Positions 1,631 to 30,286 of a stretch of DNA of 30,286 nucleotides are shown here, piece after piece. The stretch is from Promethearchaeota archaeon (lineage in GTDB: Archaea; Asgardarchaeota; Lokiarchaeia; Sigynarchaeales; SOKP01): the NCBI GenBank assembly GCA_019057775.1, contig JAHLWT010000186.1:1-30286 (forward strand), given 5' to 3'. Position numbers and translations under genes: made by a program. Within the stretch, counting starts at the first letter, position 1; each line of letters opens with the position of its first letter. The notes under the pieces are model-generated. The model was not told the origin of the DNA. It made no database searches and was given only the letters and a program-made list of their open reading frames with translations.

Positions 1631-2341
1631 ATGAAATCTAAAAATAGAACAAAATGCTTTATCGGATTATTGTTATTTTTCATCAGTCTAATTGTCAATA
1701 ACAATATAGTTAATAATGATTTAGAGAATATCAAAAAACCATTATTAAAAAACAATAGTTCTTGGGATCTTACGGGGACTCCAATTTCAATTGATGGAAA
1801 TGCAGAATGGGTAACAACTGCTGCAACAGAACCATGGTGTAATGGCTCCGGAACATGGAGTGATCCCTATATTATTGAGAATGTCACTATAGATGGACAG
1901 GATTCGGGGAATTGTATTGAGATAAGTAATTCCAATGTGTACTTTATATTACGAAATAATACATTATATAACTCGGGTTCAGGATCGAACGATGCTGGTA
2001 TTTTTCTTTATAGAACCGATAATGGCCAGCTAATAAATAACACTATTACTTTAAATGGGTATTATGGAATATATCTGGATGATAGTAATAACAATTCAAT
2101 TATTGGAAATTCTGTAACTGCAAATGTTGAAGTAGGCATAGGATTATATAATAGTGATTATAACTCAGTTTGGTTTAACATCATCAATAATAATGATAGG
2201 GGAATAAAATTAGAGATTTCTGATTATAACCATATTTTTGAAAATAACTTGAGTAATAATAATGGGTTTGGTTTCCTGAGCAGCGGTTTAATAATATTAC
2301 AGGAAATACCGCAAATAGTAATGGAGTTATATTTTTTTTAA
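1631..2341 (+). CDS. N-terminal fragment: signal peptide and NosD-like parallel beta-helix
   Basis: As read, 236 residues starting at the ATG at 1631. Residues about 9-24 are a hydrophobic export signal (CFIGLLLFFISLIV) after a basic start. Residues about 40-110 form a cap module with W..A...W and GSGTWSDPYIIE, then beta-helix rungs with the asparagine-ladder pattern of NosD-type/right-handed parallel beta-helix proteins (repeated GIYLDDSNNNSIIGN-like units about 22-23 residues long). The fold makes extracellular solenoids used for binding surfaces or polysaccharides; the ligand is unknown. After the GFGFLSSG segment near base 2286 the frame goes off-register: the last ~20 residues (through QEIPQIVMELYFF) lose the pattern and end at 2341, while the pattern resumes at once in another frame. 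So this is the front piece of the long gene rather than a complete small protein. Confidence 0.8.
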   Translation: MKSKNRTKCFIGLLLFFISLIVNNNIVNNDLENIKKPLLKNNSSWDLTGTPISIDGNAEWVTTAATEPWCNGSGTWSDPYIIENVTIDGQDSGNCIEISNSNVYFILRNNTLYNSGSGSNDAGIFLYRTDNGQLINNTITLNGYYGIYLDDSNNNSIIGNSVTANVEVGIGLYNSDYNSVWFNIINNNDRGIKLEISDYNHIFENNLSNNNGFGFLSSGLIILQEIPQIVMELYFF

Positions 2342-5300
2342 GTGTTGGTAACAATAATACGATATCAAAAAATTTTTTAAAAGTCTCATCGAGTGGGAGG
2401 GGGATTGACCTCGGTGCTGGGTTTTATAATAAAATTACTGAAAATAAAATAAATGGCACCTTAAAGGGGTCAAATAGCATTGGTATTGCGTTATATTCAG
2501 GTGGAAGCACCCTAATTTTAAAGAACCAAATAAGTTTTTTTGATATTGGCATTAGGATAGACAGTGGGAATACTTTAATAACACAAAATCATATATTAAA
2601 TAATTCTAAGGGTATCTCCCTTGAAGGTGGTTTTATAAACGTCTTGTATAAAAACTATTTTCTTGGAAATACAATCCATGCAATTGATAATCCTATTCCT
2701 TCTGGATGGGTTAATAATTGGAATAACACTATTGTAGGTAATTATTGGGATAACCATTCAACTGGAGATTCAGATGGAGATGGCATAGACGATACTCCAT
2801 ATGATATCCCCGGTACTGCTGGAAGTAAAGATTTTCGTCCAATTTTTGGCAATCCTCTAATACCATCTAATACGGTCCATATTGATGGGACCGGAGTTAG
2901 TGCTCCTAATTGGGATTGGGCTGTTACAAGAGCATGGATTAAAGGGTCAGGAACTTCTGAAGATCCATATATAATTGAAGATTTAACCTTTAATGCTGGA
3001 GAAGCGGCACAAGCTATTTTAATCGGAAACTCAAGCGCATTTTTCATAATAGAAAATTGTACCATATTGAACTTTACAGATACGGGTATTAAATTAGACA
3101 AGTCAAATAACGGTCAGCTGATAAATAACACTTGTACTTCAAATGTGCAATTTGGAATATATTTGGACTCCAGCAATAGTAACATAATTTCTAATAACAC
3201 TATTAATGATTTTTCTTTTGGAATTCGTCTAGAAAATAGTAGTTACAACTCTATTATTGAAAATTCTGCAAATGGAAATAGTCAAGTAGGAATCTATTTA
3301 TATAGTGATAGTGATTTTAACAATATTTCAAGTAATATAATTACTAATAATAGACAGGGAATAGAAATTTATGGATCATATTACAATGATATTTTGAAAA
3401 ATGAAGTAGATGGTAGCTTAATTCATGGAATTTTATTAGAAAATGGAGGGTATAACTCCATTTATGAAAATACAGTAATTTATAATGGTGATCAAGGAAT
3501 TCGCATATGGTCTTCAACTTTTGAAACTATCTATAATAATACAATTAATAATAACAATTACGGTATTCGTATTATCAATGGTGAAGATTGTAATATTTTA
3601 GCGAATGAAATTGATCAAAATAATTATGGATTATTTTTGGATCAACAATTCGCTGGACTAGATAACAACCTAATTTCAGAAAATCTATTCTCAAATTGTA
3701 ATTTTGAGGGTCTAAAAATTACTACTAGCCCAAATCTTATTTTTCTTAATAATTTTACAGGAAATCCTTCAATTGCACATGCAATTGACGATGATCAAAA
3801 TAATACATGGGATAATGGAACTATAGGCAATTATTGGGATGATTATGGAGGTTTTGATGCTGATGATAATGGTATTGGCGATACACCATATGATATAACG
3901 GGGTCAGCAAAAAGTAAAGATAATTACCCTATCTGGCGGGATGGCGATGATCTAGCCCCGAACGTATCAATTTATTATCCAATTGAAAATCAAATATTTG
4001 GATACATTGCACCTGCTTATAATATTACAATTTTTGATTTCTATGAACTTAATACCACATGGTATACAATAGATGAAGGTCTCACAAATTATAGTTTTTC
4101 TGGATTTACAGGTTTTATTAATCAAACCGCTTGGGGTAAAAAAGGAAATGAAACGGTAACTATTAAATTTTATGCAAACGATACATCAGGGCATACAGGT
4201 GTTGCATATGTTATTATTAGGAAAGATATCGTTGATCCTGTGATTTTAATAACCACTCCTATTCCCAGTCAATTTACTGGAGGAAATGCGCCAACTTATT
4301 CCCTCTCAATTACAGAACCTAACCCATACCAGGTATGGTATTCTCTTGATGGGGGGATAACAAATTCTACACCTAGCGGGGCAACAAGCGGTACAATCGA
4401 TCAAACTATGTGGGATGCGACACCGAATGGCACCGTGACTATTATTTTTTATGCGGATGATACTGCTGGCAATGTGGGAACCAATTTTGTAACAATTTGG
4501 AAAGATATCGTTGATCCTGTGATTTTAATAACCACTCCTATTCCCAGTCAATTTACTGGAGGAAATGCGCCAACTTATTCCCTCTCAATTACAGAACCTA
4601 ACCCATACCAGGTATGGTATTCTCTTGATGGGGGGATAACAAATTCTACACCTAGCGGGGCAACAAGCGGTACAATCGATCAAACTATGTGGGATGCGAC
4701 ACCGAATGGCACCGTGACTATTATTTTTTATGCGGATGATACTGCTGGCAATGTGGGAACCAATTTTGTAACAATTTGGAAAGATATTATTGCGCCAAAT
4801 ATCTTAATTAATTCACCGAGTGATAATGAAATCTTTGGTATTACCGCACCAAGTTTTAATATTTCCATAAATGAGCCTAACCTCGATTCGGTGTGGTATA
4901 CTCTTGATAATGGGATCACGAATATAACGATTAGTGAATTTACAGGAATGATTGATCAAGGAGAATGGAATAAGAAAGGAAAAAGTATTGTTATTATTAC
5001 GTTTTACGCAAATGATACATCAGGAATTATTACCCTTCAATCAGTTTCTATTGAAAAGTATTATGAATATTGGCCATTAAATTCGTTGATAATTGATGAT
5101 AGTGGTGGCGGAGATTACACATGGGAACAAGCAATTACTCTGGGATGGTGTCGGGGCTCTGGTACATCAATTGATCCATATCTTATTGAATTCATCAAAA
5201 TTAATGGTCAAAATTCAGGTAGCTGCCTAACAATTAGATTTTCACAAGTTTATTTTTCCCTGGTAAATTGTACGTTTTATAACTCAGGCAACATCAATGA

Positions 5301-5655
5301 TAATGACGCAGGCATTAAATTAATAAATATTACAAACGGAAGATTACACCTTGTTAATAGTTCATTTAACAATGGTCATGGAATTCTCTTAGAATTCTGT
5401 GAATATATAAATATAACAAACAGTACAATTAACAATAATACCTTGAACGGGATTTTATTGATCGATTGCAGCTATGTAAATATCTTAGATAATACTAATA
5501 CAATTAATAGTAATTCTGACTCTGGTATATATCTATTAAGAAGTCATAACAATGAAATCTCGGATAATACAATAAGATATAATAGTGTTGGGATAAATCT
5601 TGATGAGTCCAACTTAAATTTAATAGAGAGAAATAATTATTGGGTAATGAAATAG
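2287..5655 (+). CDS. Central fragment: beta-helix modules and four Ig-like repeats (extracellular part of TIR receptor)
   Basis: This frame is open from 2263 to 5655. The first start-like codon is a TTG at 2644, inside a beta-helix rung; the 120 codons before it already have clear rungs (FNNITGNTANSNG and following), so 2644 is not a real start and the frame continues the preceding fragment. Content: rest of beta-helix 1, ending in a Gly-Asn-Tyr-Trp-Asp plus DSDGDGIDDTPYDI motif typical of NosD C-termini (about 2740-2860); a new cap and beta-helix 2 (about 2880-3940), ending in a second GNYWDDYGG/DTPYDI motif; four Ig-like repeats of about 93 residues (about 3946-5055) with WYSLDGG, GTIDQ and FYADDTAGN landmarks; and a third cap and beta-helix (about 5080 on). 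Repeats 2 and 3 are identical at nucleotide level. It breaks at NNYWVMK, where the rung continues in the next frame. Confidence 0.8.
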   Translation, partial: FNNITGNTANSNGVIFFLSVGNNNTISKNFLKVSSSGRGIDLGAGFYNKITENKINGTLKGSNSIGIALYSGGSTLILKNQISFFDIGIRIDSGNTLITQNHILNNSKGISLEGGFINVLYKNYFLGNTIHAIDNPIPSGWVNNWNNTIVGNYWDNHSTGDSDGDGIDDTPYDIPGTAGSKDFRPIFGNPLIPSNTVHIDGTGVSAPNWDWAVTRAWIKGSGTSEDPYIIEDLTFNAGEAAQAILIGNSSAFFIIENCTILNFTDTGIKLDKSNNGQLINNTCTSNVQFGIYLDSSNSNIISNNTINDFSFGIRLENSSYNSIIENSANGNSQVGIYLYSDSDFNNISSNIITNNRQGIEIYGSYYNDILKNEVDGSLIHGILLENGGYNSIYENTVIYNGDQGIRIWSSTFETIYNNTINNNNYGIRIINGEDCNILANEIDQNNYGLFLDQQFAGLDNNLISENLFSNCNFEGLKITTSPNLIFLNNFTGNPSIAHAIDDDQNNTWDNGTIGNYWDDYGGFDADDNGIGDTPYDITGSAKSKDNYPIWRDGDDLAPNVSIYYPIENQIFGYIAPAYNITIFDFYELNTTWYTIDEGLTNYSFSGFTGFINQTAWGKKGNETVTIKFYANDTSGHTGVAYVIIRKDIVDPVILITTPIPSQFTGGNAPTYSLSITEPNPYQVWYSLDGGITNSTPSGATSGTIDQTMWDATPNGTVTIIFYADDTAGNVGTNFVTIWKDIVDPVILITTPIPSQFTGGNAPTYSLSITEPNPYQVWYSLDGGITNSTPSGATSGTIDQTMWDATPNGTVTIIFYADDTAGNVGTNFVTIWKDIIAPNILINSPSDNEIFGITAPSFNISINEPNLDSVWYTLDNGITNITISEFTGMIDQGEWNKKGKSIVIITFYANDTSGIITLQSVSIEKYYEYWPLNSLIIDDSGGGDYTWEQAITLGWCRGSGTSIDPYLIEFIKINGQNSGSCLTIRFSQVYFSLVNCTFYNSGNINDNDAGIKLINITNGRLHLVNSSFNNGHGILLEFCEYINITNSTINNNTLNGILLIDCSYVNILDNTNTINSNSDSGIYLLRSHNNEISDNTIRYNSVGINLDESNLNLIERNNYWVMK
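4222..4779 (+). repeat. Exact 279-bp tandem duplication (two copies) encoding one Ig-like repeat
   Basis: Bases 4222-4500 and 4501-4779 read as identical copies from AAAGATATCGTTGATCC to ACAATTTGG. The period is 279 bases, exactly 93 codons, so the frame is kept and the unit equals one Ig-like domain. The flanking repeats (about 3946-4221 and 4780-5055) are the same domain but clearly diverged. This looks like a recent in-frame domain duplication; an assembly duplication is possible. Confidence 0.95.
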
Positions 5656-6572
5656 CTTACTTAGATAATGGTGATGATAATACTATAGATGGTAATATTC
5701 TTCCTGGAGGAACAGGATTTCAGTTTCCTTTTGAAACCTTGTTAATTATTCTAATTGTTGGTATCGTCGCTATTGGAATTACTGGTTCTGTCATAATAAG
5801 AAAAAGAATAATGTCTTCAAGAGAAGCCGTTGGAAAAAGAGAAATAAGTGAACAGAAAAAAGAAAAAGTTCGCAAAAAACTTGAAAAAAAATTGAATTTT
5901 GTAGATTTTCTAATAGAAGAGAATAAGTTCAAATTAGCTTATAAAAATCTAGGAAAAATTAAAGATACCTCAGATCAATATGATTTCTTTGATATTTTTA
6001 ACAAAGCCAATGAAAAAGCCCAATATTGCATGGATGTAGAAAAAGGAATTATTACTAAAAAAGTAGTAAAAGAAGAAGGTATTACATCTACAACAAAAAG
6101 AAAAGTAACTGAGAGAGCAAAAGTTATCCCATTAGTAAAGAAGGAAGCAGAAAAGGGAAAAATTAAGGAATATAGAGTGTTTTTAAGTTATTCAACAAAA
6201 GATTCAAAATATTTTCAAATTCCGAGAATTGTCAAAGCCTTAGAACAATTCCCTGAAATTGAAAAAGTTTTATATTGGGAGGCAGACGCTGCGCGAAATA
6301 TTGTAGATTATATGGAGGAAACTCTTAAAGAAAGCGATTTATTTGTCTTATTTTGTTCAGAAAATTCAGTTAAATCATCAGCTGTAAAAGATGAGTGGCA
6401 AGCAGCATTCCAAATGAGGAAAAAAGGTTTTATAAAATTAATCCCCGTGTATGAAAAAGAAGAACATGTCCCTGTATTATTAATGCCATTACTGAATGTG
6501 TTATTTACTAAAGATGATTTTGGAGGATTCATTAAAAAACTCTACGAAGAGATACTTAGGGAAGGTTTTTAA
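5640..6572 (+). CDS. C-terminal fragment: transmembrane helix, helical linker and cytoplasmic TIR domain
   Basis: Read alone this is 310 residues from a TTG at 5640, but the TTG lies in a beta-helix rung (GNEIAYLDNGDDNTIDGN) that continues the preceding frame, so it is the end of the long gene. Residues 31-53 are a membrane helix (FPFETLLIILIVGIVAIG and on) followed by VIIRKR, a stop-transfer charge cluster. Residues about 70-135 are Lys/Glu-rich and helical, with a hairpin ending in AQYCMD. Residues 177-305 are a TIR domain: YRVFLSYSTKD (strand A and box 1), LEQFPEIEKVLYWEAD, NIVDYMEETLKESDLFVLFCS, then NSVKSSAVKDEWQAA. Glu252 in DEW sits where TIR NADases keep their catalytic glutamate. TIR domains either cleave NAD or act by homotypic interaction; which applies here is not decidable. 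It is strikingly like the C-terminus of the protein at 27731-29494. Confidence 0.87.
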   Translation: MGNEIAYLDNGDDNTIDGNILPGGTGFQFPFETLLIILIVGIVAIGITGSVIIRKRIMSSREAVGKREISEQKKEKVRKKLEKKLNFVDFLIEENKFKLAYKNLGKIKDTSDQYDFFDIFNKANEKAQYCMDVEKGIITKKVVKEEGITSTTKRKVTERAKVIPLVKKEAEKGKIKEYRVFLSYSTKDSKYFQIPRIVKALEQFPEIEKVLYWEADAARNIVDYMEETLKESDLFVLFCSENSVKSSAVKDEWQAAFQMRKKGFIKLIPVYEKEEHVPVLLMPLLNVLFTKDDFGGFIKKLYEEILREGF

Positions 6573-6581
6573 TCAACTCTC

Positions 6582-6597
6582 TTTAAAAAATATATAG
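6582..6597 (+). promoter_or_regulatory. Putative TATA box for the coiled-coil gene
   Basis: TTTAAAAAATATATAG lies just after the stop of the TIR fragment (6572) and about 80-90 bases before the ATG at 6675. It resembles an archaeal TATA element and suggests this gene has its own promoter rather than only read-through from the receptor gene. Confidence 0.35.
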
Positions 6598-6664
6598 CTA
6601 TAAAATCTTAATACTAAAAATTTATTTATTTAACTCTTTTTTAAACTAATAATAAAAAAATTTT

Positions 6665-6669
6665 GGTGA
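6665..6669 (+). promoter_or_regulatory. Ribosome binding site (GGTGA) that decides the start at 6675
   Basis: GGTGA sits five bases before the ATG at 6675. It covers the GTG at 6666 and overlaps the TTG at 6663, so those codons cannot be started from this site. The same GGTGA element precedes the starts at 21243 and 29644. Confidence 0.6.
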
Positions 6670-6674
6670 ATCAA

Positions 6675-8255
6675 ATGGTTGATAAAGTCGTACCATATTT
6701 AATTAACATGGGTGAAGTGATTCCCGCTCGTAGTCAAGCATCTCTATTAAATGAATTAGCAATGGGTATAATTGAATGTATTGGAATTTATGGCAAAAGT
6801 CTTAAGAAATTAGGTAGGTTAACAAAAATAGCGACAGCTTTTTGGCCAGTTAGATTAATTCCATTGACAGATACGAGAGCATGTGTGTGTTCTTATTTAT
6901 TAAATAAACAGGAAAAATTACATGTTGGAAAGTTCTCACAAATGCCTCCAAGACCTGATAATATAATAGTAGGAGCAGATCCTGTATCATTTTTCCAATC
7001 ATTACAAACTTATAATAATACTTATCTTAGGCGAGCTAAAACCTTTAAAAGAGGTATTGTTATCCAAGAAGCTTTGTTCTCTGCTAATGAAGTAAGGTAT
7101 TTTCAAAACTTTTTCCTTAATCAATATAATTTAGGTACTCATTCTTCTCCCTATTTCTTACTTGAAGGTGGTCCAATAGCTAAAAGTGTAAACCAGACAA
7201 ACATCGTTCAAGAAGTTATTGACTTTGTATCTCAAAAAGAAATTGATGTGTTAGATAAGGTTGGTGACAGAATTACTCAATTGTGTGAGAAATGGATTGA
7301 GAAAGGCAGTAAGAATGTCGATAAGATAAGAGATACAAAAGTAGACACTGGAGAGGAAGAAAAACAACTTGAAATCCTGAATAAGGAATTACAAGAAGTG
7401 AAAGAACAGGAAATTGAGAAATCACCTGAAGAATTGGTGAAGTCAGGTAAATACAAAATTAATGATAAGACAGACGAATTACATAACAATGTCACGAACA
7501 TTAAAAATAGTGTCAACAGTTTGAGAAATGGAATTAATCAGAGAGATCTTTTCTTGGTTGAAGAAGGGTTAAAAGATTTAGATATAAAGTATAAAGACTT
7601 AGGTAATTCAATTGCTCGCTACAAAAGCGAAATTGCTCAATTAAGAAAGAACGTACAACGGGAAATTAATGATATTGAAAAAAGTCGCCATCAAAAAATC
7701 AGAGAATTAGAACGCAAGAAATCTGAAGTTGAAAAACAGATTAAAGCAAAACATAGTGGCTTAAGTAAGGATTTAACCACAGCTGAAGTTGTTATTGCCA
7801 AAATTAAAACAGAAAAGCAGTCCTGTATAGCTAACATTGAATCTATTAAGGATAGAGAAATGACAAGTGTCCAGAATTTCTTTAATAATTATACTCTTGA
7901 AGTGAAGTCGCAAAATGTAGTCGTAGGTATTCCTATCTACATATTCTATTTCGTCGATCCTAACACGAGTAGAACAACTGAACGTGCTCCAGTGTTGCCA
8001 ATATTAATAGATAAAGGGGGTATAGTAAGAACAAAAGTGAAAGCAAGCTTTAGGCAGAAATTAAGGGATTTGATGAATAAAGATAATGCGATGATTAGTT
8101 TGGTTGAAACCCAAGGCGATAAAAATAATTTGATGGAAATGAAAAATTTAGATACTCGTCTTGAGGATGCGATTAATGATTTAAGAATTCAGAAAATTTT
8201 AAATAAGAAACAAGCTGAAACCGCTAAATCGATCATTGCTGACTTAGTTTGGTAA
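6675..8255 (+). CDS. Cytoplasmic coiled-coil protein of unknown function
   Basis: I do not recognise this protein. With the ATG at 6675 it is 526 residues; no signal peptide or membrane helix is visible, so it is probably cytoplasmic. The N-terminal ~200 residues look globular, with a hydrophobic/aromatic strand AFWPVRLIPL (about residue 53) followed by a Cys pair in ACVCSYLL. The middle is strongly charged: Glu/Lys-rich helix around residues 225-255 and a long heptad-like coiled coil around 320-365 (REINDIEKSRHQKIRELERK). A globular segment near residues 415-450, NVVVGIPIYIFYFVDP followed by a buried strand APVLPILID, looks like the partner of the N-terminal strand region, so the coil may be a hairpin inserted in one globular domain. 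A helical tail follows. It lies 102 bases after the TIR receptor on the same strand, so a cytoplasmic role near that receptor is possible but unsupported by any motif. Confidence 0.85.
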   Translation: MVDKVVPYLINMGEVIPARSQASLLNELAMGIIECIGIYGKSLKKLGRLTKIATAFWPVRLIPLTDTRACVCSYLLNKQEKLHVGKFSQMPPRPDNIIVGADPVSFFQSLQTYNNTYLRRAKTFKRGIVIQEALFSANEVRYFQNFFLNQYNLGTHSSPYFLLEGGPIAKSVNQTNIVQEVIDFVSQKEIDVLDKVGDRITQLCEKWIEKGSKNVDKIRDTKVDTGEEEKQLEILNKELQEVKEQEIEKSPEELVKSGKYKINDKTDELHNNVTNIKNSVNSLRNGINQRDLFLVEEGLKDLDIKYKDLGNSIARYKSEIAQLRKNVQREINDIEKSRHQKIRELERKKSEVEKQIKAKHSGLSKDLTTAEVVIAKIKTEKQSCIANIESIKDREMTSVQNFFNNYTLEVKSQNVVVGIPIYIFYFVDPNTSRTTERAPVLPILIDKGGIVRTKVKASFRQKLRDLMNKDNAMISLVETQGDKNNLMEMKNLDTRLEDAINDLRIQKILNKKQAETAKSIIADLVW

Positions 8256-21242: not shown

Positions 21243-24200
21243 TTGAAGAAATTTAAAAAGAAATTAATTGTTTTAAATGTTCTATTAATATTTTGTTTAA
21301 GTAATTTTATACAATTTGTCGATATTAATACTCCTAATAGTTTAATTGAGAAGCGTACTCTTGATAAACCTTCCCCTAAGCTTAATAATCAAAATATAAA
21401 TATTACAACACCTGAAAATAAAACATATACCACTTCGATGGGTGGGTATTATCCTGCTACATACGGATTTGAGTGGGATGAAAACAATGATTTCCCAAAA
21501 GGATGGTATGAAAATTCTGGTTCTAATGGATATGCTAAAGTTATTGATGGAATTGGTGGACATAATAAAGTTTTAGAATGCTATAGTAGTTCTTCAGGCG
21601 ATTCTCGGGTCGATTCGATTATCTTTTTTGATCCTCAAGAACATGGTTTAATCGAATTCTGGTGGTACAAATCATCAAGTTATTCCTCAGCAGCAATTGT
21701 AGATTTCTGGGGAGAAACTCCGGGCGCCTGTGTCTCAATTAGGGTGGATCATAATAATGATAAAGTTGAGTATCAACCTGGTGGGGGTTATTTGGATACG
21801 GGATATTCTTATTATACTGATAATAAATGGATGCATTTCCGTATAGATTTTGATTGTTCTTCCGATACTTACAGTCTTTGGATAGATCAAGTATTATATC
21901 TTGATAATATTGATTTCATTGATTCAAAAGACGAAACTGGTGTTAATCAAATGCGGTTTGATAGTTACAATGAAGCAAACGCAGTTTTATATTATGTTGA
22001 CGCAGTAAGTTTTTCTTGGGACCCAAATTATGATATTTGGGATAATTTGAATGAAGGATTATTACTAAGTTTTACAAATTCAACAATGCTAGATTGGATC
22101 GGTTATTCATTAGATAGTCAATCGAATAAAACTATTTTTGGTAATACTACAATTCCAATGCCCGAAGAAGGAATTCATTCTATTCAAGTGTTTGGTGAAA
22201 TTTTAGGAACCACATATCAATCTGATAAAAGATATTTTACATTAGATTATCCAATTAAAATTATATCTCCTGAAGCTAAAACATATAAAAAAGCAATGGA
22301 TGGATATTATCCTGCAACTTATGGATTTGAAACTATAAAAAATGGTAGTATCCCAGAAGGTTGGACTTTTATTAGTACTGATCCCGCTGGTGAATCGTTT
22401 GTAATTGATGAAGTCGATGAACATAAAAATGTCCTCAAACTAAAGCATGGGGGGACCATTTCGACATATACTCGATTAAGAGCACCTTTATTTGATCCGA
22501 TTGTGGCAGGTTCAGTTGAATGGTGGATGTACTATGAAGATAATGCATTAAACCATGGTGCTGCTGTATCTATTAATAAATTATTTCCGTGGGAATCCTT
22601 AACGGCAGTTGGATTGAAAGGTGATGGGAGTATCATGTATTATGATGGAGGAATACAATCATTTTATGGAACTTACAGCTTAGATACATGGCATCATTTT
22701 AAACTTGATTTTGATTGTTCTACAGATAAATTTAATTTAACTTTTAATGGTAACCTTATCCTCTCTGATATAGATTTTACTGATGATCTAGATAATGTTG
22801 ATGAGTTGCATTTTCAATCAGATCAATTATCAAATCCTAATGTTTACTATGATGCTATTGGCTATTCTTGGGAATCTGGTTATAATATTGGAGACAATTT
22901 GGATGAAGGTTTGCTGCTCAGTTTTGAAAATTCGACTGCGCTAGATTGGGTTGGCTATTCTTTAGATAATGCTCCTGTTAAAACAATTTTGGGAAATGCT
23001 ACGATTCCATTGCCCAATGATGGAGAACATATAATTAAAGTGGTGGGGAATGATTCTTTTGGAGTACCGCATCGATCACCCTTTCGTCGCTTTTCCGTTT
23101 ATCATATTAATATTATCACGCCCGAAGATAAAACATACGATGAACCAATGGGTGGGTATTATCCTGCGACCTACGGATTTGAAAGTGATGATAATAATGA
23201 TATCCCAGAAGAGTGGTCAAGTTGGGTTTCTATGGGAAATGCACAAGCGAAAGTAATTTCAACTAAGGATGGGCATAATAAGGTTGTCGAACTTAATGAT
23301 ATCACAGCAGTAGGACAAACATCTTTAAGGCAAACTTTAAATGAAAATCGGACTTTTGGAACAATTGAATTTTGGTTTTATATAACGGATATTACACAAA
23401 AAACTAGATTGGTTTTGGGGGAATATCAAGATACTTCTTTTGAATTGTTTATTGAGTCTTCGAAATGGCAATATCTGGTAGGTGTAACTCCTAATGATGT
23501 ACCAAATGTAACGGCTCCACAAAATGATCAATGGACACATATTAGGATTGATTATGAATATGGAACGGGAGGATACCAAGGATTAAGTGAGGATGAATGG
23601 TATATCATTATTGATGGTGTAAATTCGTCTGCTCTCCCCGCCACATACGCTAAAGATAAGATGAATTGGATAGATTTCATTTCTTCTGTAAGTGCTTCAG
23701 GTTTTTTCTTTTATATTGATGCTATTGGGTATTCTTGGAATCCTTATTATAACATTGGAGATAATCTGGATCAAGGATTATTACTTAGCTATGAAAATTC
23801 TACAGCACTAAATGTGACAGGCTATTCATTAAACTATCAACCTATAAAGACAATTCGAGGAAATACAACTCTTCGAATACCGGATGGAGATCATACAATT
23901 CAAATATTTGGGAATGATACATCTGGAACCAATTATAAATCAGATATCCGTCAATTTTCGGTTTATCATATAAATATAACGACTCCTGAAAATAAAACAT
24001 ATTATGAACCGATGAATGGCTATTATCCTGCGACTTATGGATTTGAAAATGATGATTCAGGCTCGGTTGCGGATAACTGGCTTCACGAAGCTGTGGCTTC
24101 TACTCATGCCTACATAAATGATTCGGCTGCGGGTAGAAATAAAGTATATGAACTATATGATAATCAAGGTTCAGGAAATATAGATGTGCTTAACCAGTTT

Positions 24201-27200
24201 AGTAATCAAAGCTATGGAACTGTTGATTTCTGGCTTTATGTAACAAGTGATGGAGAGTGGACAACCATGGATATAAGGGATGATACTACTGAAACAGCGG
24301 TAATGCAAGTGGTTTTAACTCCTGGGCAATACTTATTAGGTCGAAATAGTACAGGTGATCATAATTTTACAGAATTTGGAATTATGAATGGCAATGAATG
24401 GTACCATTTTCGTGTTGATTTCCGAAGAGCAGGAGAGCCTGCCTATATGGGATTAGCTGATGATACCTATATTGTAACTCTTAATGAAAATCAAGCAAAT
24501 CAAGCTTTAGGATTCATGAACACGGGACTTCCGATAAACCAATTTTCCATAGGTACCGCATGGAGTGGTTTTGATCCTAATTATTACTGTTATTTGGACG
24601 CAGTTGGGTATTCGTGGGATCCTTATTATAATATTGGAGATAACTTAAATGAGGGACTATTACTAAGTTTTGAAAATTCGACTGCACTTGATTGGACTGG
24701 CTATTCATTGAATTCTCAATCTACAAAAACCATTATGGGAAATGTCAGTATTCCTATGCCTGAAATTGGGTTACATACAATTCAAGTATTTGGAAACGAT
24801 TCAACTGGAACAATGTATAACTCCGATTTAAGATATTTTAGAATTGATTCTCCTTTAAAAATTATTACACCTGAAAATAAGACGTATAACGAACCTACGA
24901 GTGGTTATTATCCTGCCACGTATGGCTTCGAAAATGATGTGAGTAATGAAATCCCTACCGGTTGGGAGAATTACACATATGGATATCCTAAAAATTTCAT
25001 TGAAGTTAGGCCCGAGTTTAACGGACATAAAAATGTGTTAATGGGACAACAATTAGGAGCAGGTGCATGGAATTTACTTAATTATTTCAATGAAGCTGAA
25101 GCTACAATCGAATTTTGGGTCGCTTGCACTAATGATACAAGTGGAGTAGAGATCTACCTTGCTAATAATTCCTACTTAGATTTTTTTCATCTATTCTTTG
25201 ATTCAGGAGATATTGTCCTCTCTACTAACCAGGGTTTTAATAGATTTGATACATACATACTTAACACTTGGTATCATATCAGAATAGATTTCAGATCTGA
25301 TACAGGAAACCCTTATCAGGGGCTTAACCAGAATGAGTATGAGATTTATATTAATGGAAATAGTAAAGGAAATTTTTCTTATAACAAACCTGGGACTCCA
25401 GATCATATCCAATTAATAGGTGGTAATGGGTATTTTGATGCTTTTGGCTATTCTTGGGATCCAAATTACAATATCGGAGATAATTTAAATGAGGGTTTAT
25501 TGCTTAGTTTTGAAAATTATACAAATCTTGAGTGGCAAGGTTATTCATTGGATGGTCAACCCACCAAAACAATATTAGGTAATACTACAATTCCAATACC
25601 AGGCAAAATGCGGCATACAATTCAAGTTTACGGGAATGATTCCATGGGGACAAATTATCAATCTGAAGTAAGACATTTTTCAGTTGATATTAATATTACT
25701 TACGATCTAAGCATTTTTACTCCTGAAAATAAAACTTATTCAGATCCTATGAGTGGCTATTATCCAGCAACTTTTGGATTTGAAGATGATAAAGGGAGAA
25801 CTGATACTTCAATTAGTTTTGTTGATGGAATTGAATCAGGATCAAATGTAGTTAATGTTTCTGAAGAATTGGATGGTCACAAGGATTATCTTGATTATCA
25901 AGATGATAATTATTTTTATAATAACTTTTCTTCACAAACAATGGGATATATTGATTTCTGGATTAGAACAGAGACATTAGACTCTATAAACGGTGATCAA
26001 TTATGGATCTCTGTAAGAGATTCTACCCAAGATGCCCTTACTTTGCAATTTTTTAATGGTGAAATTACGAGTCTGGAAGATGGTACCCCTAGTCCAGGTT
26101 GGTATTTTTATTCCGTAGATACATGGTATCATATAAAAATATTATTCAATTGTTCTTCTGAAAAATATAGCGTTTGGATTAATGATATACTTGTAAGAAG
26201 CGAAAAGGATTTTGCTTATTCTTCGACATATAATTACAGTGCAGGAGTAGAAGAATTAAGATTTGATAGCTATTATTCCCCAGTAAGAAGATATTTTGAT
26301 GCCATAGGATATTCATGGGATTCTAGTTACAATGTTGGTGATAATTTGAATGAAGGCTTGTTGCTTAGCTATGGAAATTATACCAATCTTGAGTGGCAAG
26401 GTTATTCATTGGATGGTCAACCCATTAAAAGAATTCCAGGCAATACTACTATTCCGATGCCAGGAGATGGAAAACATTCAATTCAGGTATTTGCCAACGA
26501 TCCTTTAGGATATAATTATCTATCTGATATAAGATATTTCACAGTTAGCACTATAATTGATATTACTAATCCTATTATAGTAATTAACTCACCTAGTTTT
26601 AATGCTCTTTTCGGGAGTTCCGCGCCTTTCTTTAATCTAACAATTACAGAGCCGAATTTGCAATCTATGTGGCATACATTAGATGGGGGGCTAACAAATA
26701 CTACTATAACGGGGCAAATTGGAATAATAGATCAAACAGTATGGAATAATGCCCCCAATGGGACAACTATCATTAGGTTTTATGCAAACGATGAGGCCGG
26801 CAATACGGGATTTGCGGAGGTAGATGTAAGAAAAGATATATTATCACCAATTATTACCATAGATGCTCCTTCTGAGAATGGAGTATTTCCAGAAACAGCT
26901 CCAGATTTTGATTTGTCTATTTCTGATGGAAATCTAGATTCTATATGGTATTCGTTAGATGGTGGTTTAACAAATACATTATCTTCGTTACCTACGGGAA
27001 CAATCGATCAAACTGTGTGGGGTAATTATCTAAATGGAACGGTTACTATTAGATTTTTTGCTAATGATACTATAGGAAACATCGGTTTTGAAGAAATAAC
27101 AATTGGAAAGGATATACTTGAACCGGAGGTTATTATTCTTAATCCAAGTGAAGGTGATAAATTTGGAGGAACTGCTCCCTTCTTTAATTTGTCTATTATC

Positions 27201-27497
27201 GATGGGAACTTGGATTTAGGTGCTATATGGTATACATTGGATGATTCTCCATTCAATCTTCCTTGTGATGCATCAGGACAAATTAGTCAACAATTATGGA
27301 ATGCGTTACCGTCTGGTTCTTATGTTTTAACGTTTTATGCTAGCGATGTGTTTGGACATGAAGGATTTTCTCAAGTTACTATTATTAAGAGAGGAGGAGG
27401 ACAAGCAATTTATGGATACGACAACCTACTTTTATCTCTAATATTAATCATGGGTATAGTGAGTATTGGTTGGCAAATTAGGAAAAAAATAAAATAA
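21243..27497 (+). CDS. Surface protein with six ~290-residue LamG/Ig-like units, three Ig-like repeats and a C-terminal membrane anchor
   Basis: 2,084 residues from a TTG at 21243; GGTGA at 21231-21235 supports it, and the start gives a proper signal peptide (KKFKKKLIVLNVLLIFCLS). Six tandem units begin at about residues 53, 341, 625, 913, 1209 and 1492. Each opens with a T/SPE.KTY…GYYPATYGFE segment, continues with a LamG/ConA-like jelly roll (EFW…, WYHIRIDF…, FDAIGYSWDPNYNIGDN), and closes with an Ig-like part (EGLLLSFENST, GYSLD.QP.KTI.GNTTIP, HTIQVFGNDS.GT). The units are similar in protein but diverged in DNA, so the duplications are old. Three 93-residue Ig-like repeats (from about 1773, 1868, 1959) are of the same family as in the TIR receptor at 3946-5055. 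Residues about 2058-2079 are a membrane helix followed by RKKIK. The protein is surface-exposed, probably binding sugars or other cells; no enzyme motif is visible. Confidence 0.92.
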   Translation: MKKFKKKLIVLNVLLIFCLSNFIQFVDINTPNSLIEKRTLDKPSPKLNNQNINITTPENKTYTTSMGGYYPATYGFEWDENNDFPKGWYENSGSNGYAKVIDGIGGHNKVLECYSSSSGDSRVDSIIFFDPQEHGLIEFWWYKSSSYSSAAIVDFWGETPGACVSIRVDHNNDKVEYQPGGGYLDTGYSYYTDNKWMHFRIDFDCSSDTYSLWIDQVLYLDNIDFIDSKDETGVNQMRFDSYNEANAVLYYVDAVSFSWDPNYDIWDNLNEGLLLSFTNSTMLDWIGYSLDSQSNKTIFGNTTIPMPEEGIHSIQVFGEILGTTYQSDKRYFTLDYPIKIISPEAKTYKKAMDGYYPATYGFETIKNGSIPEGWTFISTDPAGESFVIDEVDEHKNVLKLKHGGTISTYTRLRAPLFDPIVAGSVEWWMYYEDNALNHGAAVSINKLFPWESLTAVGLKGDGSIMYYDGGIQSFYGTYSLDTWHHFKLDFDCSTDKFNLTFNGNLILSDIDFTDDLDNVDELHFQSDQLSNPNVYYDAIGYSWESGYNIGDNLDEGLLLSFENSTALDWVGYSLDNAPVKTILGNATIPLPNDGEHIIKVVGNDSFGVPHRSPFRRFSVYHINIITPEDKTYDEPMGGYYPATYGFESDDNNDIPEEWSSWVSMGNAQAKVISTKDGHNKVVELNDITAVGQTSLRQTLNENRTFGTIEFWFYITDITQKTRLVLGEYQDTSFELFIESSKWQYLVGVTPNDVPNVTAPQNDQWTHIRIDYEYGTGGYQGLSEDEWYIIIDGVNSSALPATYAKDKMNWIDFISSVSASGFFFYIDAIGYSWNPYYNIGDNLDQGLLLSYENSTALNVTGYSLNYQPIKTIRGNTTLRIPDGDHTIQIFGNDTSGTNYKSDIRQFSVYHINITTPENKTYYEPMNGYYPATYGFENDDSGSVADNWLHEAVASTHAYINDSAAGRNKVYELYDNQGSGNIDVLNQFSNQSYGTVDFWLYVTSDGEWTTMDIRDDTTETAVMQVVLTPGQYLLGRNSTGDHNFTEFGIMNGNEWYHFRVDFRRAGEPAYMGLADDTYIVTLNENQANQALGFMNTGLPINQFSIGTAWSGFDPNYYCYLDAVGYSWDPYYNIGDNLNEGLLLSFENSTALDWTGYSLNSQSTKTIMGNVSIPMPEIGLHTIQVFGNDSTGTMYNSDLRYFRIDSPLKIITPENKTYNEPTSGYYPATYGFENDVSNEIPTGWENYTYGYPKNFIEVRPEFNGHKNVLMGQQLGAGAWNLLNYFNEAEATIEFWVACTNDTSGVEIYLANNSYLDFFHLFFDSGDIVLSTNQGFNRFDTYILNTWYHIRIDFRSDTGNPYQGLNQNEYEIYINGNSKGNFSYNKPGTPDHIQLIGGNGYFDAFGYSWDPNYNIGDNLNEGLLLSFENYTNLEWQGYSLDGQPTKTILGNTTIPIPGKMRHTIQVYGNDSMGTNYQSEVRHFSVDINITYDLSIFTPENKTYSDPMSGYYPATFGFEDDKGRTDTSISFVDGIESGSNVVNVSEELDGHKDYLDYQDDNYFYNNFSSQTMGYIDFWIRTETLDSINGDQLWISVRDSTQDALTLQFFNGEITSLEDGTPSPGWYFYSVDTWYHIKILFNCSSEKYSVWINDILVRSEKDFAYSSTYNYSAGVEELRFDSYYSPVRRYFDAIGYSWDSSYNVGDNLNEGLLLSYGNYTNLEWQGYSLDGQPIKRIPGNTTIPMPGDGKHSIQVFANDPLGYNYLSDIRYFTVSTIIDITNPIIVINSPSFNALFGSSAPFFNLTITEPNLQSMWHTLDGGLTNTTITGQIGIIDQTVWNNAPNGTTIIRFYANDEAGNTGFAEVDVRKDILSPIITIDAPSENGVFPETAPDFDLSISDGNLDSIWYSLDGGLTNTLSSLPTGTIDQTVWGNYLNGTVTIRFFANDTIGNIGFEEITIGKDILEPEVIILNPSEGDKFGGTAPFFNLSIIDGNLDLGAIWYTLDDSPFNLPCDASGQISQQLWNALPSGSYVLTFYASDVFGHEGFSQVTIIKRGGGQAIYGYDNLLLSLILIMGIVSIGWQIRKKIK
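21400..26560 (+). repeat. Six tandem protein-level repeats of about 855-885 bp
   Basis: The GYYPATYGF (or GYYPATFGF) landmark recurs at about 21444, 22302, 23154, 24018, 24903 and 25758, giving units of 285-295 codons. A seventh example starts the truncated gene at 29644, and the YSWDPNYNIGDN part recurs three times in the giant minus-strand protein. Confidence 0.9.
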
Positions 27498-27527
27498 TAT
27501 TTTTTATTTTCTAGTTATCATCTTTTT
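27498..27527 (+). terminator. Possible U-rich terminator
   Basis: Directly after the stop at 27497 the sequence is TATTTTTTATTTTCTAG, followed by another T5 run. Archaeal termination uses such U-tracts, but the surrounding region is AT-rich, so the call is weak. Confidence 0.3.
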
Positions 27528-27730
27528 AGATTTAATAATTATATTGGAGATCTGATTAGAAATAGTTTTGAAATATGAGAGTAATATAAATATTAAGTAT
27601 TCATATTGTTAATATAAATAGTATATCCAAAACATAGCTCATAAGGTCATAAACAGATTGTAAAAAAACGTTAAGAAAACTTATAAAACTCATTAATTAA
27701 ATCAAAAATATTATATAAAGGTTGATGTGT

Positions 27731-29494
27731 ATGAGAACAATTAAATTGCAGAAATCTAATTTAATAAAATTAATTTATGTTATCTTATTCTTGATTACTC
27801 TTCTCTCAATAACTTTTCCATATTATTCTAAAACTTATGTATTTCCTCCCCCACCTTCAGATCCTGTATATACAACTACAATATACTATTGGGGGCATAT
27901 CGAATTGATTTATGGAGGATGGGTAGGACTAATACTTATTATTGTATCTGTTTTTTTATTAAGTCTTGAGAGGAAAAAGAGAGCGTTTATGGTGGGAAGT
28001 TTAGGGTGTGCGTTACTCGGATTTAATTTAGTAATTAAAACTTTCTTTCAAACAATTACAATCCAGCCAGGTCTTTATATTGCCTTTATAGTTTGGATTG
28101 CCTTATGTGTTGTAAATGGATATTCGTTTATCGGAGTAGAAGGGGAAGTATCGTTAAAGCGAGTTAAACAATGGAAGATTAAATCAAAAGATAAAATAAA
28201 GCCAGTTGAAATAAAGAAAGAAGTAGATTTAAAAGCATATTGGGGAAATAGAGAGAAGATAATAGCCCAAACTATCACTTTTATCAAGGAAAAGCAATTA
28301 AAACAAAAGGAATTACCATTTTTCAAGATTACTTCAAAAATAGGAATAAGAAAAAAAGACCTAGGATTGGTTATTAGCGACATGATCTCTAATAATGAAA
28401 TTCATGCAAAAGTAAGAGATTTTGTAATTATTTTCAAGAAAGTTTCAGAAGAAAAAGAAGAAGAGCTGCCAGAAATTAAGGAAGCACTTGAAGAGAAAAT
28501 AGCTGAAATTGAAAATATAATCAAAGAAAATAGAATTGACCAAGCTATTATAGATTTAATGGAAGTAATAGAAATAGCAGATAAATATAAATTTGAAGAT
28601 CTTGTAAAAGCCGCAAAGGAAAAATTGAAACAAAGTAAAGAACTTGAAATAGAAAAGAAAAAAGAGAAAGAACTACAGAGAATTGAAGAGGAACTTCGAA
28701 CAAATCTGTCTAAGATTGATGGATATATTGAAAAAAACAAAGTTCGAGAAGCTTTAGAGTATTTAGTAAAACTCAAAAAAATTGCTAAAGAAAGAGATTT
28801 TGGCGAGATAATAGAAGCCATTGAAGAAAAAATTAAATATTGTAAAGATTTTCAACTTAATATTATCAATAAAATTCGAAAAACTATTTTAAATTATTCA
28901 ACCAAATTAACACGATTGGAACTAGTTGATATAATTGAAAAGACTGATATTCAAGATGAAAATCTAATTGAGAAAACTATTCATAAAATGATTAAAAATC
29001 GGGAGATTAACGCGGAATATTTTTCAAGTTCAAAATCAATTGCATTTTTTCAACAGGATAAAGAAGCAGTACCTGTATCAAAGAAGAAGAAGGTAAAAAA
29101 ATTAAGAGTTTTTCTTAGCTATTCTACTCTCGATGCTGAACATTTTAAAATAATTGATATTGTTAAAAGTCTAGAAGATTATCCTGAAATAAAAAAAGCC
29201 TCGTATTGGCAAGCAGATAGTAAACAAAATATAGTAGAATTCATGGAGGATACACTTAAAAATACTGAGGTCTTTGTACTCTTCTGTTCTAAAAATTCAG
29301 TTAAATCCAATGCCGTTAAAGACGAATGGCAAGCAGCATTTCAGTTAAGAAAAGAAGGTTTAATGAAGATAGTCCCAGTTTATGAAAAAAAAAGCCATCT
29401 TCCATATCTATTGAAACCAATGTTAAATGTCAAGTTTGATGAGGATGATTTTGATGGATTTATCGAAAAGCTTCATGAAGAGATTTTGAGATAA
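27731..29494 (+). CDS. Four-helix membrane protein with winged-helix-like and helical-hairpin segments and a C-terminal TIR domain
   Basis: Start chosen at the ATG at 27731, nine bases after AAAGG; ATG 27725 and TTG 27722 are in frame but lie too close to it. 587 residues. Numbering from 27722: membrane helices at about 14-36, 66-84, 88-109 and 117-138, with a proline-rich loop (FPPPPSDP) between the first two; then a basic segment, so the rest is cytoplasmic. Residues about 170-240 look like a winged helix (ITSKIGIRKKDLGLVISDM, then a beta wing), 250-315 and 320-378 are two helical hairpins, and 380-445 a second winged-helix-like part. Residues 460-588 are a TIR domain: LRVFLSYSTLD, PEIKKASYWQAD, NIVEFMEDTLKNTEVFVLFCS, NSVKSNAVKDEWQAA, with Glu535 at the catalytic position of TIR NADases. 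The TIR matches that at 6168-6554 over its full length. Unlike that receptor it has almost no outside part and would need a partner to sense anything. It lies 233 bases downstream of the six-unit surface gene, same strand. Confidence 0.9.
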   Translation: MRTIKLQKSNLIKLIYVILFLITLLSITFPYYSKTYVFPPPPSDPVYTTTIYYWGHIELIYGGWVGLILIIVSVFLLSLERKKRAFMVGSLGCALLGFNLVIKTFFQTITIQPGLYIAFIVWIALCVVNGYSFIGVEGEVSLKRVKQWKIKSKDKIKPVEIKKEVDLKAYWGNREKIIAQTITFIKEKQLKQKELPFFKITSKIGIRKKDLGLVISDMISNNEIHAKVRDFVIIFKKVSEEKEEELPEIKEALEEKIAEIENIIKENRIDQAIIDLMEVIEIADKYKFEDLVKAAKEKLKQSKELEIEKKKEKELQRIEEELRTNLSKIDGYIEKNKVREALEYLVKLKKIAKERDFGEIIEAIEEKIKYCKDFQLNIINKIRKTILNYSTKLTRLELVDIIEKTDIQDENLIEKTIHKMIKNREINAEYFSSSKSIAFFQQDKEAVPVSKKKKVKKLRVFLSYSTLDAEHFKIIDIVKSLEDYPEIKKASYWQADSKQNIVEFMEDTLKNTEVFVLFCSKNSVKSNAVKDEWQAAFQLRKEGLMKIVPVYEKKSHLPYLLKPMLNVKFDEDDFDGFIEKLHEEILR

Positions 29495-29643: not shown

Positions 29644-30286
29644 ATGATTAAATTAAAAAAAAAAAATATGGCATTTCTATTAATTATAATTTTTTGTCTA
29701 AATTGCGTTATATTCTTTAATCACATAGAGATCAATAAATTAAATTCTGATACCAAGAATGTTACAAAACCAAAGTTTAGTGCTCAAAATATAAACATTA
29801 CGACACCAGAAAATAAGACCTATATAGAACCGATGAGTGGATATTATCCCGCAACATTTGGATTTGAAGATGTTCTTGATGATACAACACCCACTTATGT
29901 TGAATATAACACGTTCGGCACATCTCCGGATTGGGTTAATTCCTATACAAGAGTTATTAATAACAAAATAGATGGTGCCGGAAACAAACACAATAAAGTG
30001 TTACTTTTAAAAGATGCGACAAGTTCAGCCCTGGCTCTTTCTTATTTAAATTTTACTGACTATGGTTCTGAAATTGCAAGAAATAGCACATTTGAATTTT
30101 ATCACTTACTTAATATCCCTGGTACACATTATATAAGTCGAATAGTATTTTCTGGTAATTATGGTGAATTATTTCAAGTTTTATTTGAAACAAATACCCT
30201 AGTGATTAAATATATAAATAACAGTGGAACATATTCTACAGGACTTAATCTAGTGAGAGATAGATGGTATAGATATTCTATAGATA
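29644..30286 (+). CDS. Paralogue of the six-unit surface protein, N-terminal part (cut by window edge)
   Basis: Open from the ATG at 29644 to the window end, 214 codons without a stop; GGTGA at 29632-29636 supports the start. The N-terminus is basic with a run of lysines from an A-tract of about twelve bases, then a hydrophobic signal (MAFLLIIIFCLNCVIFF). Residues about 47-61 read AQNINITTPENKTY, matching the protein at 21243 (NQNINITTPENKTY) almost exactly, followed by EPMSGYYPATFGFED, the unit landmark. The LamG-like part begins near residue 145 (STFEFYHLLNIPG) and continues to DRWYRYSID at the edge, the position of the WYHIRIDF motif. It is therefore the start of a further secreted protein with the same repeat unit. 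How many units it has, and whether it ends in a membrane anchor, lies outside the window. Confidence 0.88.
   Translation, partial: MIKLKKKNMAFLLIIIFCLNCVIFFNHIEINKLNSDTKNVTKPKFSAQNINITTPENKTYIEPMSGYYPATFGFEDVLDDTTPTYVEYNTFGTSPDWVNSYTRVINNKIDGAGNKHNKVLLLKDATSSALALSYLNFTDYGSEIARNSTFEFYHLLNIPGTHYISRIVFSGNYGELFQVLFETNTLVIKYINNSGTYSTGLNLVRDRWYRYSID

Follow-up and report, generated by a model that had tools for sequence, protein, structure and literature searches.

We examined a 30,286-nucleotide stretch of DNA from a Promethearchaeota archaeon (GCA_019057775.1, contig JAHLWT010000186.1; hereafter the window), in which three open reading frames (ORFs) in three different frames together span positions 1631-6572 of the plus strand. 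An earlier note, made from the sequence alone, had read them as one gene with two single-base breaks, coding for a protein laid out like a Toll receptor. As observed here, the parts follow one another as a signal-like segment, beta-helices, four Ig-like repeats, another beta-helix, one membrane helix, a linker and a TIR domain. This domain order through the broken gene was confirmed by Pfam matches, hydropathy and two AlphaFold models.

A receptor-type gene in three reading frames

Fragment 1 (1631..2341, 236 amino acids [aa]) contains a signal-peptide-like N terminus and the first, NosD-type beta-helix (Pfam Beta_helix, 3.2e-16; NosD, 1.6e-15). Its strongest 19-residue hydrophobic stretch lies at residue 9 (2.15), and hydropathy is the sole basis for the signal peptide claimed earlier; here as throughout, signal peptides and membrane helices were called by a hydropathy script rather than a trained predictor. 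At approximately 2280..2300 the beta-helix pattern switches frame in a three-frame translation and continues in fragment 2 (2263..5655), which is open from stop to stop, was listed from a TTG at 2644 and matches NosD at 1.5e-57 over five stretches. The NosD model TIGR04247, with a cut-off of 300, was not reached by fragment 2 (160.3 bits) or fragment 1 (44.5 bits), which were scanned in pieces. Fragment 2 holds the rest of the extracellular part, with no stretch above 1.51 in hydropathy: the second beta-helix (2875..3642), four Ig-like repeats of ∼93 residues each (3961..5097; model residues 440-818, pLDDT 53-91) and a third, membrane-proximal beta-helix (5179..5628; model residues 846-995, pLDDT 78-96), which is 44-58% identical in relatives. 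The AlphaFold model of 2644-5652 showed a beta-solenoid, four beta-sandwich repeats and a second solenoid. The Ig-like repeats of the earlier note were seen as beta-sandwiches in this model, the middle ones at pLDDT 53-81, but their best Pfam family, Big_13, scored 20.5 bits and stayed under its cut-off of 27. Repeats 2 and 3 are 99% identical and form a 279-nucleotide (nt) direct repeat at 4209 and 4488.

A second frame change, placed at approximately 5630..5645 by three-frame translation, leads into fragment 3 (5640..6572, 310 aa), which carries the end of the beta-helix, the membrane helix, the linker and the TIR domain. The single membrane helix (residues 35-53; 5742..5798) gave a hydropathy of 2.91 at residue 35 and was modeled as part of a long helix, residues 31-63, at low pLDDT (block means 75, 55, and 52). 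It is followed by a confidently modeled cytoplasmic linker of three helices (residues 71-134; 5850..6041; block pLDDT 87-98) that is common to relatives, and by the TIR domain (6168..6566; TIR_2, 6.7e-16), whose fold covers residues 178-306 and whose Glu252 is encoded at 6393-6395. Profile searches and structure prediction, which the earlier note had envisaged for the joined protein, were run on the fragments, with models of fragment 3 and of 2644-5652, and bore out the layout at that level.

A search with fragment 3 returned 75 database matches at E <= 0.001, itself included. In Lokiarchaeota metagenome-assembled genomes (MAGs), L003 (2206 aa), L005 (979 aa), and L006 (876 aa) are single intact ORFs that run across both break positions and match fragments 1, 2, and 3 in order; these are best local alignments that cover each fragment in part, as in L006, whose residues 1-222, 324-514, and 557-876 align with the three fragments. 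Another Lokiarchaeota MAG contig, L014, has one intact 1788-aa beta-helix/helix/TIR ORF at the syntenic place, between a short-chain dehydrogenase gene (54% identity, minus strand) and a 79%-identical counterpart of window 6663-8252. Because of these intact single-ORF relatives and the syntenic L014, the window fragments can be taken as parts of what is normally one protein, a unity not deducible from the window itself. Separate genes for the three parts were not what the relatives showed. The three reading frames might also point to an assembly chimera of unrelated genes, but the identical join recurs in many MAGs and metagenome proteins; a chimera is hardly credible here, and for the family we rejected it, since the join recurs across so many assemblies.

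The state of this copy is a separate matter. Both frame changes are seen as claimed, and a single-base break is the simplest reading of each, its single-base extent being unproven. The breaks are either sequence errors or real damage. Damage or switching is more plausible than poor sequence, because the nearby ORFs of 3380 and 2084 aa are unbroken, as are those of 748 and 590 aa. The copy may even be dead, twice broken as it is beside intact ORFs of 10 and 6 kb. A pseudogene or switched-off copy, in which the family would be real but no receptor would come from this gene, is thus a possibility we take seriously while leaning somewhat away from it: there are two frame changes within one 4.9-kb gene next to neighbors that are open throughout, and a relative in L022 has a frame change within its TIR, but no in-frame stop was found apart from the two frame changes, the window TIR residues are intact, sequencing error is a possible source of the changes, and third-position G+C (0.19-0.26) is similar to that of the other genes, which is weak evidence. 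The earlier interpretation as a whole was supported in part, for a gene that is broken and may not make protein.

Receptor layout, topology, and outer domains in Asgard archaea

We surveyed Asgard genomes for proteins with a beta-helix or Ig-like part outside and a TIR inside. TIR profile matches at E <= 1e-15 occurred in 53 of 227 genomes. The classification covered part of them, with 79 regions fetched beside earlier loci and matches down to ∼1e-24, and it comprised 118 TIR ORFs, or 111 after removal of duplicate cut copies, including the window's two rows; flanks were short, so that some long proteins are cut and possibly under-classified (e.g., L054). The one-helix receptor layout was present in 27 of the 111 distinct proteins, from 14 genomes (assigned partly by contig), a share that is overstated, as these very TIRs supplied the survey query. 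Eighteen of the 27 have an N-terminal hydrophobic segment, a long outer part, one helix and a C-terminal TIR; three lack a visible signal segment (one is cut at its 5′ end); and six carry an extra stretch after the TIR (L061 and L112 are cut at the 5′ end). The others were 12 polytopic proteins (10 plus L096 and L107), 42 with a helix-free C-terminal TIR, 24 with an N-terminal TIR, and 6 of other kinds, among them window fragment 3. In five proteins (L111, L117, L112, L119, and L087) the stretch after the TIR is ∼230-300 residues long, has no Pfam hit and may be an extra output.

As the earlier note had claimed, the window helix is followed by stop-transfer charges, with no Lys/Arg in the 15 residues before it and 6 in the 15 after. 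The outer part has 44 sequons in 1332 residues against 31 expected, a number reached in 3 of 1000 shuffles; there are none in the 257 inner residues, which is uninformative since only 0.7 were expected. Lys/Arg was commoner after the helix than before it in all 27 receptor-type relatives, which together have 866 sequons in 26,061 aa outside (514 expected) and 17 in 8,099 inside (35 expected). Among 66 long database proteins with this TIR, 44 were receptor-type (a signal segment was visible in 29 and not in 15) and the other 22 polytopic, and the same charge bias was found in 44/44; these proteins are partly the surveyed loci (P0076 is L005, P0134 is L003, and P0129 is the window's second TIR). 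Judged by charges and sequons, the TIR is on the cytoplasmic side. A TIR predicted outside was found neither in the window protein nor in any of the 27.

All 27 receptors were scanned for outer domains, and 22 have a NosD/Beta_helix match. In addition, eight (L001, L002, L004, L012, L111, L112, L117, and L119) have Peripla_BP_6. SBP_bac_5 was seen in L084, L111, L117, and the second gene of L016, PKD in L085, and repeats of the propeller type (LVIVD, WD40 or SBBP) in L087, L063, and L140; in L021 and L080 the scan recognized no outer domain. Solved structures searched by sequence with the receptors that have binding domains gave no match at 0.001 in a first search and, in a second, one weak match to a branched-chain amino-acid binding protein (2.4e-4). 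Directly upstream of the Peripla_BP_6 receptor of L012, on the same strand, is a gene for a 727-aa Peripla_BP_6 protein (5313-7493).

With outer domains of known binding families, one helix, a helical linker and a conserved TIR in a single chain, these proteins are, on these domain matches, best understood as receptors. The sensing role proposed earlier has in this way gained new evidence from solute-binding and propeller-type domains on the same TIR, and the window protein itself would presumably bind a ligand. In a tree of the TIR domains, most receptors belong to a supported group (SH-aLRT 97) in which 25 of 41 rows are receptors, and others to a second group, where they make up 6 of 8 rows; the alignment has few columns, many forks are unresolved and duplicates are among the 117 rows. 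The receptor label needs 11 changes on this tree, at least 4 of them forced by well-supported branches, so outer parts have been acquired or shed on more than one occasion.

As a control, we used the Pfam TIR_2 query on two phyla that we take to be Halobacteriota (20 of 79 matches, with a frame of at least 500 aa) and Chloroflexota (36 with at least 700 aa among the matches listed, two of them in one frame). The script found receptors in 0/56, while inspection by eye found 2/56, L151 (LamG-like outer domain) and L153 (WD40-like), both archaeal and both with a start that had been set too early. The Asgard share is 27/60 at >= 500 aa and 22/35 at >= 700 aa; since query and length cut differ, only the large contrast with the control is to be read. 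Asgard archaea are not alone in having the receptor layout, but it seems concentrated in them.

The TIR domain and known receptor systems

The Glu at the position of Glu252, which we take to be the catalytic Glu of enzymatic TIRs (helix alpha-C), is kept in 115 of the 118 TIR ORFs and aligns with a Glu of 9m0n, Cat1 and TLR2. Because TLR2 has it, this residue is not sufficient for NAD cleavage. A SPARTA report (PMC10474274) gives E77A as the catalytic mutant, and Glu252 may correspond to E77. From the alignment, the kept Glu would be in line with NAD+ cleavage. The TIR fold is about equally similar to SPARTA, plant and Toll-related TIRs, and 9m0n was the only solved structure matched by the TIR alignment profile at 0.001.

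The window TIR is 56-68% identical to the TIRs of L001-L018, L020, and L021, across receptor, polytopic and LRR-type N termini alike, and more distant family members carry WD40, Ras-like and other parts. These TIRs likely have one common output or one common partner, and they could also assemble heterotypically with the cell's soluble TIR proteins. A noncatalytic scaffold, in which assembled receptor TIRs recruit a soluble TIR protein as in Toll/MyD88, would fit this high identity despite differing N termini, and all 14 receptor genomes carry more than one TIR (14/14). Such a scaffold is nevertheless unlikely in our view, given the near-constant Glu and the RelA/SpoT-TPR-SLOG neighbors described below, which favor a nucleotide product.

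Foldseek, run with the whole 1003-residue outer model, placed adhesins, cadherins and other Ig-type or surface proteins in its top rows; in a second look at this model, the beta-helix resembled NosD and alginate epimerases/lyases. Beta-helices with Ig-like repeats are typical of adhesins, and the protein might be a surface adhesin or envelope component whose TIR is an internal anchor or assembly point rather than a signaling output. We consider this quite unlikely. Solute-binding domains, LRR, WD40, SPFH or Ras-like parts occur fused to these TIRs or to related ones, a variety of fusions that fits a signaling output better than an anchor, and both the nearly invariant Glu and the RelA-SLOG neighbor in related loci speak against the adhesin.

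Several fusions stand out by themselves. L105 (1433-2761) joins a Ras-family GTPase domain (4.7e-33) to a related TIR in an Asgard genome, and P0050 and P0060 join PF01145 (SPFH/band 7 type) to a TIR. L092 (1409-5086) is a 1226-aa WD40-repeat protein with a C-terminal TIR and no membrane helix; C-terminal TIR proteins of about that length are present in several genomes. LRR with this kind of TIR, and in two cases a PCI-like part, occur in L018 (9038-10510), L020 (7913-10393), and L024 (9995-11434), reminiscent of intracellular immune receptors; the helix script found no membrane helix in these three.

With Toll-like receptors the window protein shares one membrane helix between an outer part and a cytoplasmic TIR. 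The outer part is made of LRR there and of a NosD-type beta-helix with Ig-like repeats here, in an archaeon. No LRR family matched fragments 1-3 (Pfam, E <= 0.01), and none was shown for the 27 receptor-type relatives (25 of 41 families listed for L063). Membership among the Toll receptors was rejected, as there is no LRR outside. The protein is probably receptor-like in its working, yet not a Toll receptor, having no LRR and a TIR fold that came out no nearer to Toll-related TIRs than to others. The Toll-like layout and its probably convergent origin, both put forward earlier, were upheld; any special closeness to Toll was not, with no LRR outside, a TIR fold about equally near to SPARTA, plant and Toll-related TIRs, and no membrane helix in the three LRR-TIR proteins put to the helix script.

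The interleukin-1 (IL-1) receptor family also combines Ig-like outer domains, one helix and an inner TIR, as described in parts of PMC8635717, which also call bacterial and archaeal TIR proteins poorly characterized; the window protein differs in that its Ig-like repeats lie between beta-helices and resemble, under the cut-off, the bacterial Big_13. Literature titles and abstracts, in a search without preprints and most subscription journals, disclosed no transmembrane TIR receptors in Asgard archaea. The sections available of an Asgard defence-system survey (PMC11291487) name TIR twice, within system names, and mention neither Toll nor receptor. The elements of the window protein are known, and their assembly into an archaeal receptor family appears to be new. 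Sensor kinases and chemoreceptors, as here, combine an exchangeable outer sensor, a membrane helix, a helical linker and a conserved output, which in them is a kinase or MCP domain, not a TIR. Prokaryotic TIR domains are known mainly as soluble defence-system enzymes; the TIR-APAZ protein of SPARTA, for one, is soluble and Argonaute-guided and differs from the window protein in having no membrane helix or outer domain.

If the family is real, animals are not alone in having arrived at a Toll/IL-1 layout, which would then also exist in the archaea most closely related to eukaryotes. Such a family would offer testable ligands, through its amino-acid- and peptide-type binding domains, and a testable reader, the RelA/SpoT-TPR-SLOG protein, and would make accessible to experiment in archaea whether TIR signaling began as an enzyme or a scaffold.

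RelA/SpoT-TPR-SLOG neighbors and the proposed mechanism

We compared the genes flanking the TIR genes in 24 loci (the window and L001-L023). One gene family recurs beside the TIR gene in four: L006 (5376-7091, ∼120 nt downstream, same strand), L007 (7011-9599, 480 nt away, same strand), L008 (11379-13946, ∼530 nt away, same strand), and L013 (10826-13339, 430 nt away, convergent). Further members lie beside TIR genes in L211, L213, L214, and L216. The proteins match RelA_SpoT at 38.8-50.9 bits (cut-off 27) and have TPR repeats; the RelA part also matches the GTP pyrophosphokinase YwaC (6fgk, 1.2e-5). Three complete copies score 24.0, 24.5, and 29.7 bits (cut-off 25.4) for LSDAT_prok ("SLOG in TRPM, prokaryote"), and two stretches, IIAGGTD and IISGGTxxGI, are conserved in the SLOG region. 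Other genes common to at least 3 of the 24 loci were aminotransferases (L002, L004, L007, and L008) and the flanking genes of close relatives (the L001/L002/L004 and L003/L005/L022 sets).

Matches to the RelA/SpoT-TPR-SLOG protein at E <= 1e-40 were found in 18 of the 227 Asgard genomes, and in 8 of these 18 a TIR gene directly adjoins (p = 1.7e-4 under a guessed 10% chance per genome). The adjacent TIRs are receptor-type or polytopic in G003, G004, G005, and G010; in G121, G132, G141, and G144, the gene is a 35%-identical relative, and 56-94 nt separate it from the end of a diverged TIR gene that lies upstream on its strand. Four more genomes (G008, G103, G104, and G161) have a TIR match no farther than ∼8 kb away on the contig. 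In G001 the 5′ side of the gene is the contig end, in G071 no TIR gene lies within 1.5 kb, and for G118, G122, G146, and G153 there is no same-contig TIR among the survey matches listed.

In ThsA and TRPM2, the ligands of the SLOG domain are nucleotides derived from NAD. The pairing suggests a TIR enzyme, a nucleotide messenger, a SLOG reader and a RelA/SpoT output, and from its domains the RelA/SpoT-TPR-SLOG protein is a plausible reader of a TIR-made nucleotide. Thoeris is a known parallel in two respects: fragment 3 weakly matches ThsB, and the SLOG-type domain in the neighbor gene of some relatives is reminiscent of ThsA, in which SLOG is the sensor of the TIR product. ThsB is soluble, however, and the neighbor here has RelA/SpoT and TPR parts and an LSDAT-type SLOG. 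PF18185 (STALD) was over its cut-off in 0/14 receptor genomes, and 14 control genomes gave no positive either; a 693-aa frame in one receptor genome (G005:C4:232453-233817) combines a TIR match with a sub-cut-off STALD match (7.3e-4).

Taken together, these data lead us to a reading that we hold to be fairly probable: the window gene would be a damaged copy of a single-pass, ligand-gated Lokiarchaeal TIR receptor with an NAD+-derived messenger that, in part of the family, is read by the RelA/SpoT-TPR-SLOG protein. The large outer part, probably N-glycosylated and built of beta-helices spaced by Ig-like repeats, would recognize a ligand, for which a surface glycan or polymer is the likeliest candidate, and binding would draw membrane helices and linkers together. 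The conserved TIR domains could then cluster in the cytoplasm, where they would convert NAD+ by cleavage to a nucleotide messenger; in part of the family this messenger may be read by the neighboring RelA/SpoT-TPR-SLOG protein. The same steps could apply to the window's own copy.

Several points weigh against this proposal. Beta-helices and Ig repeats are frequent in plain adhesins, nonenzymatic Toll TIRs keep the Glu too, and the lack of inner sequons in the window protein says nothing by itself. The receptor share in the survey is inflated by its query. The reader gene adjoins the TIR gene in only 4 of the 24 loci, passes the LSDAT_prok cut-off in 1 of 3 complete proteins and is absent from the window, where moreover the receptor gene is broken twice beside intact long ORFs.

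The same findings could describe a cell-suicide trigger, in which surface contact with a virus or rival switches on the NADase activity of a TIR, alone or together with a RelA/SpoT-like effector, as in abortive infection. In SPARTA, TIR-NLR and Thoeris the TIR serves defence as an NADase, RelA/SpoT-like enzymes also act as defence toxins, and fragment 3 has weak PADLOC matches to TIR-NLR (1.8e-5), ThsB (1.3e-4), and, in the linker, PDC-M67B (7.8e-4). But no receptor genome has a ThsA-type STALD over cut-off, four Asgard receptors searched against PADLOC at E <= 0.01 gave two without a match, one linker match and one weak ThsB match, and binding modules of the amino-acid and peptide types suggest nutrients no less than attackers as the signal. 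We regard a defence trigger as possible but doubtful.

The ligand-gated receptor could also belong to an expanded Lokiarchaeal class with one TIR output and interchangeable outer sensors, from beta-helices to propellers and binding proteins for amino acids or peptides, in one-piece and giant LamG/Ig two-piece forms, whose NAD-derived messenger would feed an alarmone-type response through the RelA/SpoT-TPR-SLOG protein. Such a class, in relatives of the eukaryote ancestor, would be a prokaryotic counterpart of Toll/IL-1 for environmental sensing besides or instead of immunity; we offer it tentatively, as an idea that may well prove too broad.

A candidate for the two-piece form lies in the window. 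The second TIR gene (27722..29494, plus strand) encodes four N-terminal membrane helices, a PCI-like part, a coiled part and the same kind of TIR (TIR_2, 2.4e-14; PCI, 4.4e-6), and is of the type that a RelA/SpoT-TPR-SLOG gene accompanies in L008. Just upstream, its candidate partner (21243..27497, plus strand) is a 2084-aa LamG/Ig surface protein (Laminin_G_3) with one C-terminal helix and a short basic tail. L008 (451-10843) and L009 (49-7172) contain this pair as well, ordered alike, and their exoproteins are 42% identical to the window's over 2133 and 1508 residues. This recurrence suggests that window 21243-29494 is a two-piece, or split, version of the TIR receptor.

Downstream of the broken gene, 6663..8252 (plus strand) encodes a 530-aa coiled protein that matched no Pfam family at E <= 0.01 and is found next to TIR genes elsewhere too: its 79%-identical counterpart in L014 adjoins the intact receptor, and L008 and L007 begin with its end (90 and 95 aa). 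L007 and L014 come from one genome, and each of these two contigs ends in this gene. Two other surface-protein genes are present in the window. A PKD surface protein of 3380 aa, encoded at 8624-18766, has several hydrophobic segments in its C-terminal part. At 29644-30285 a further LamG-type surface protein begins, which has the same motif at its N terminus and is truncated by the window end.

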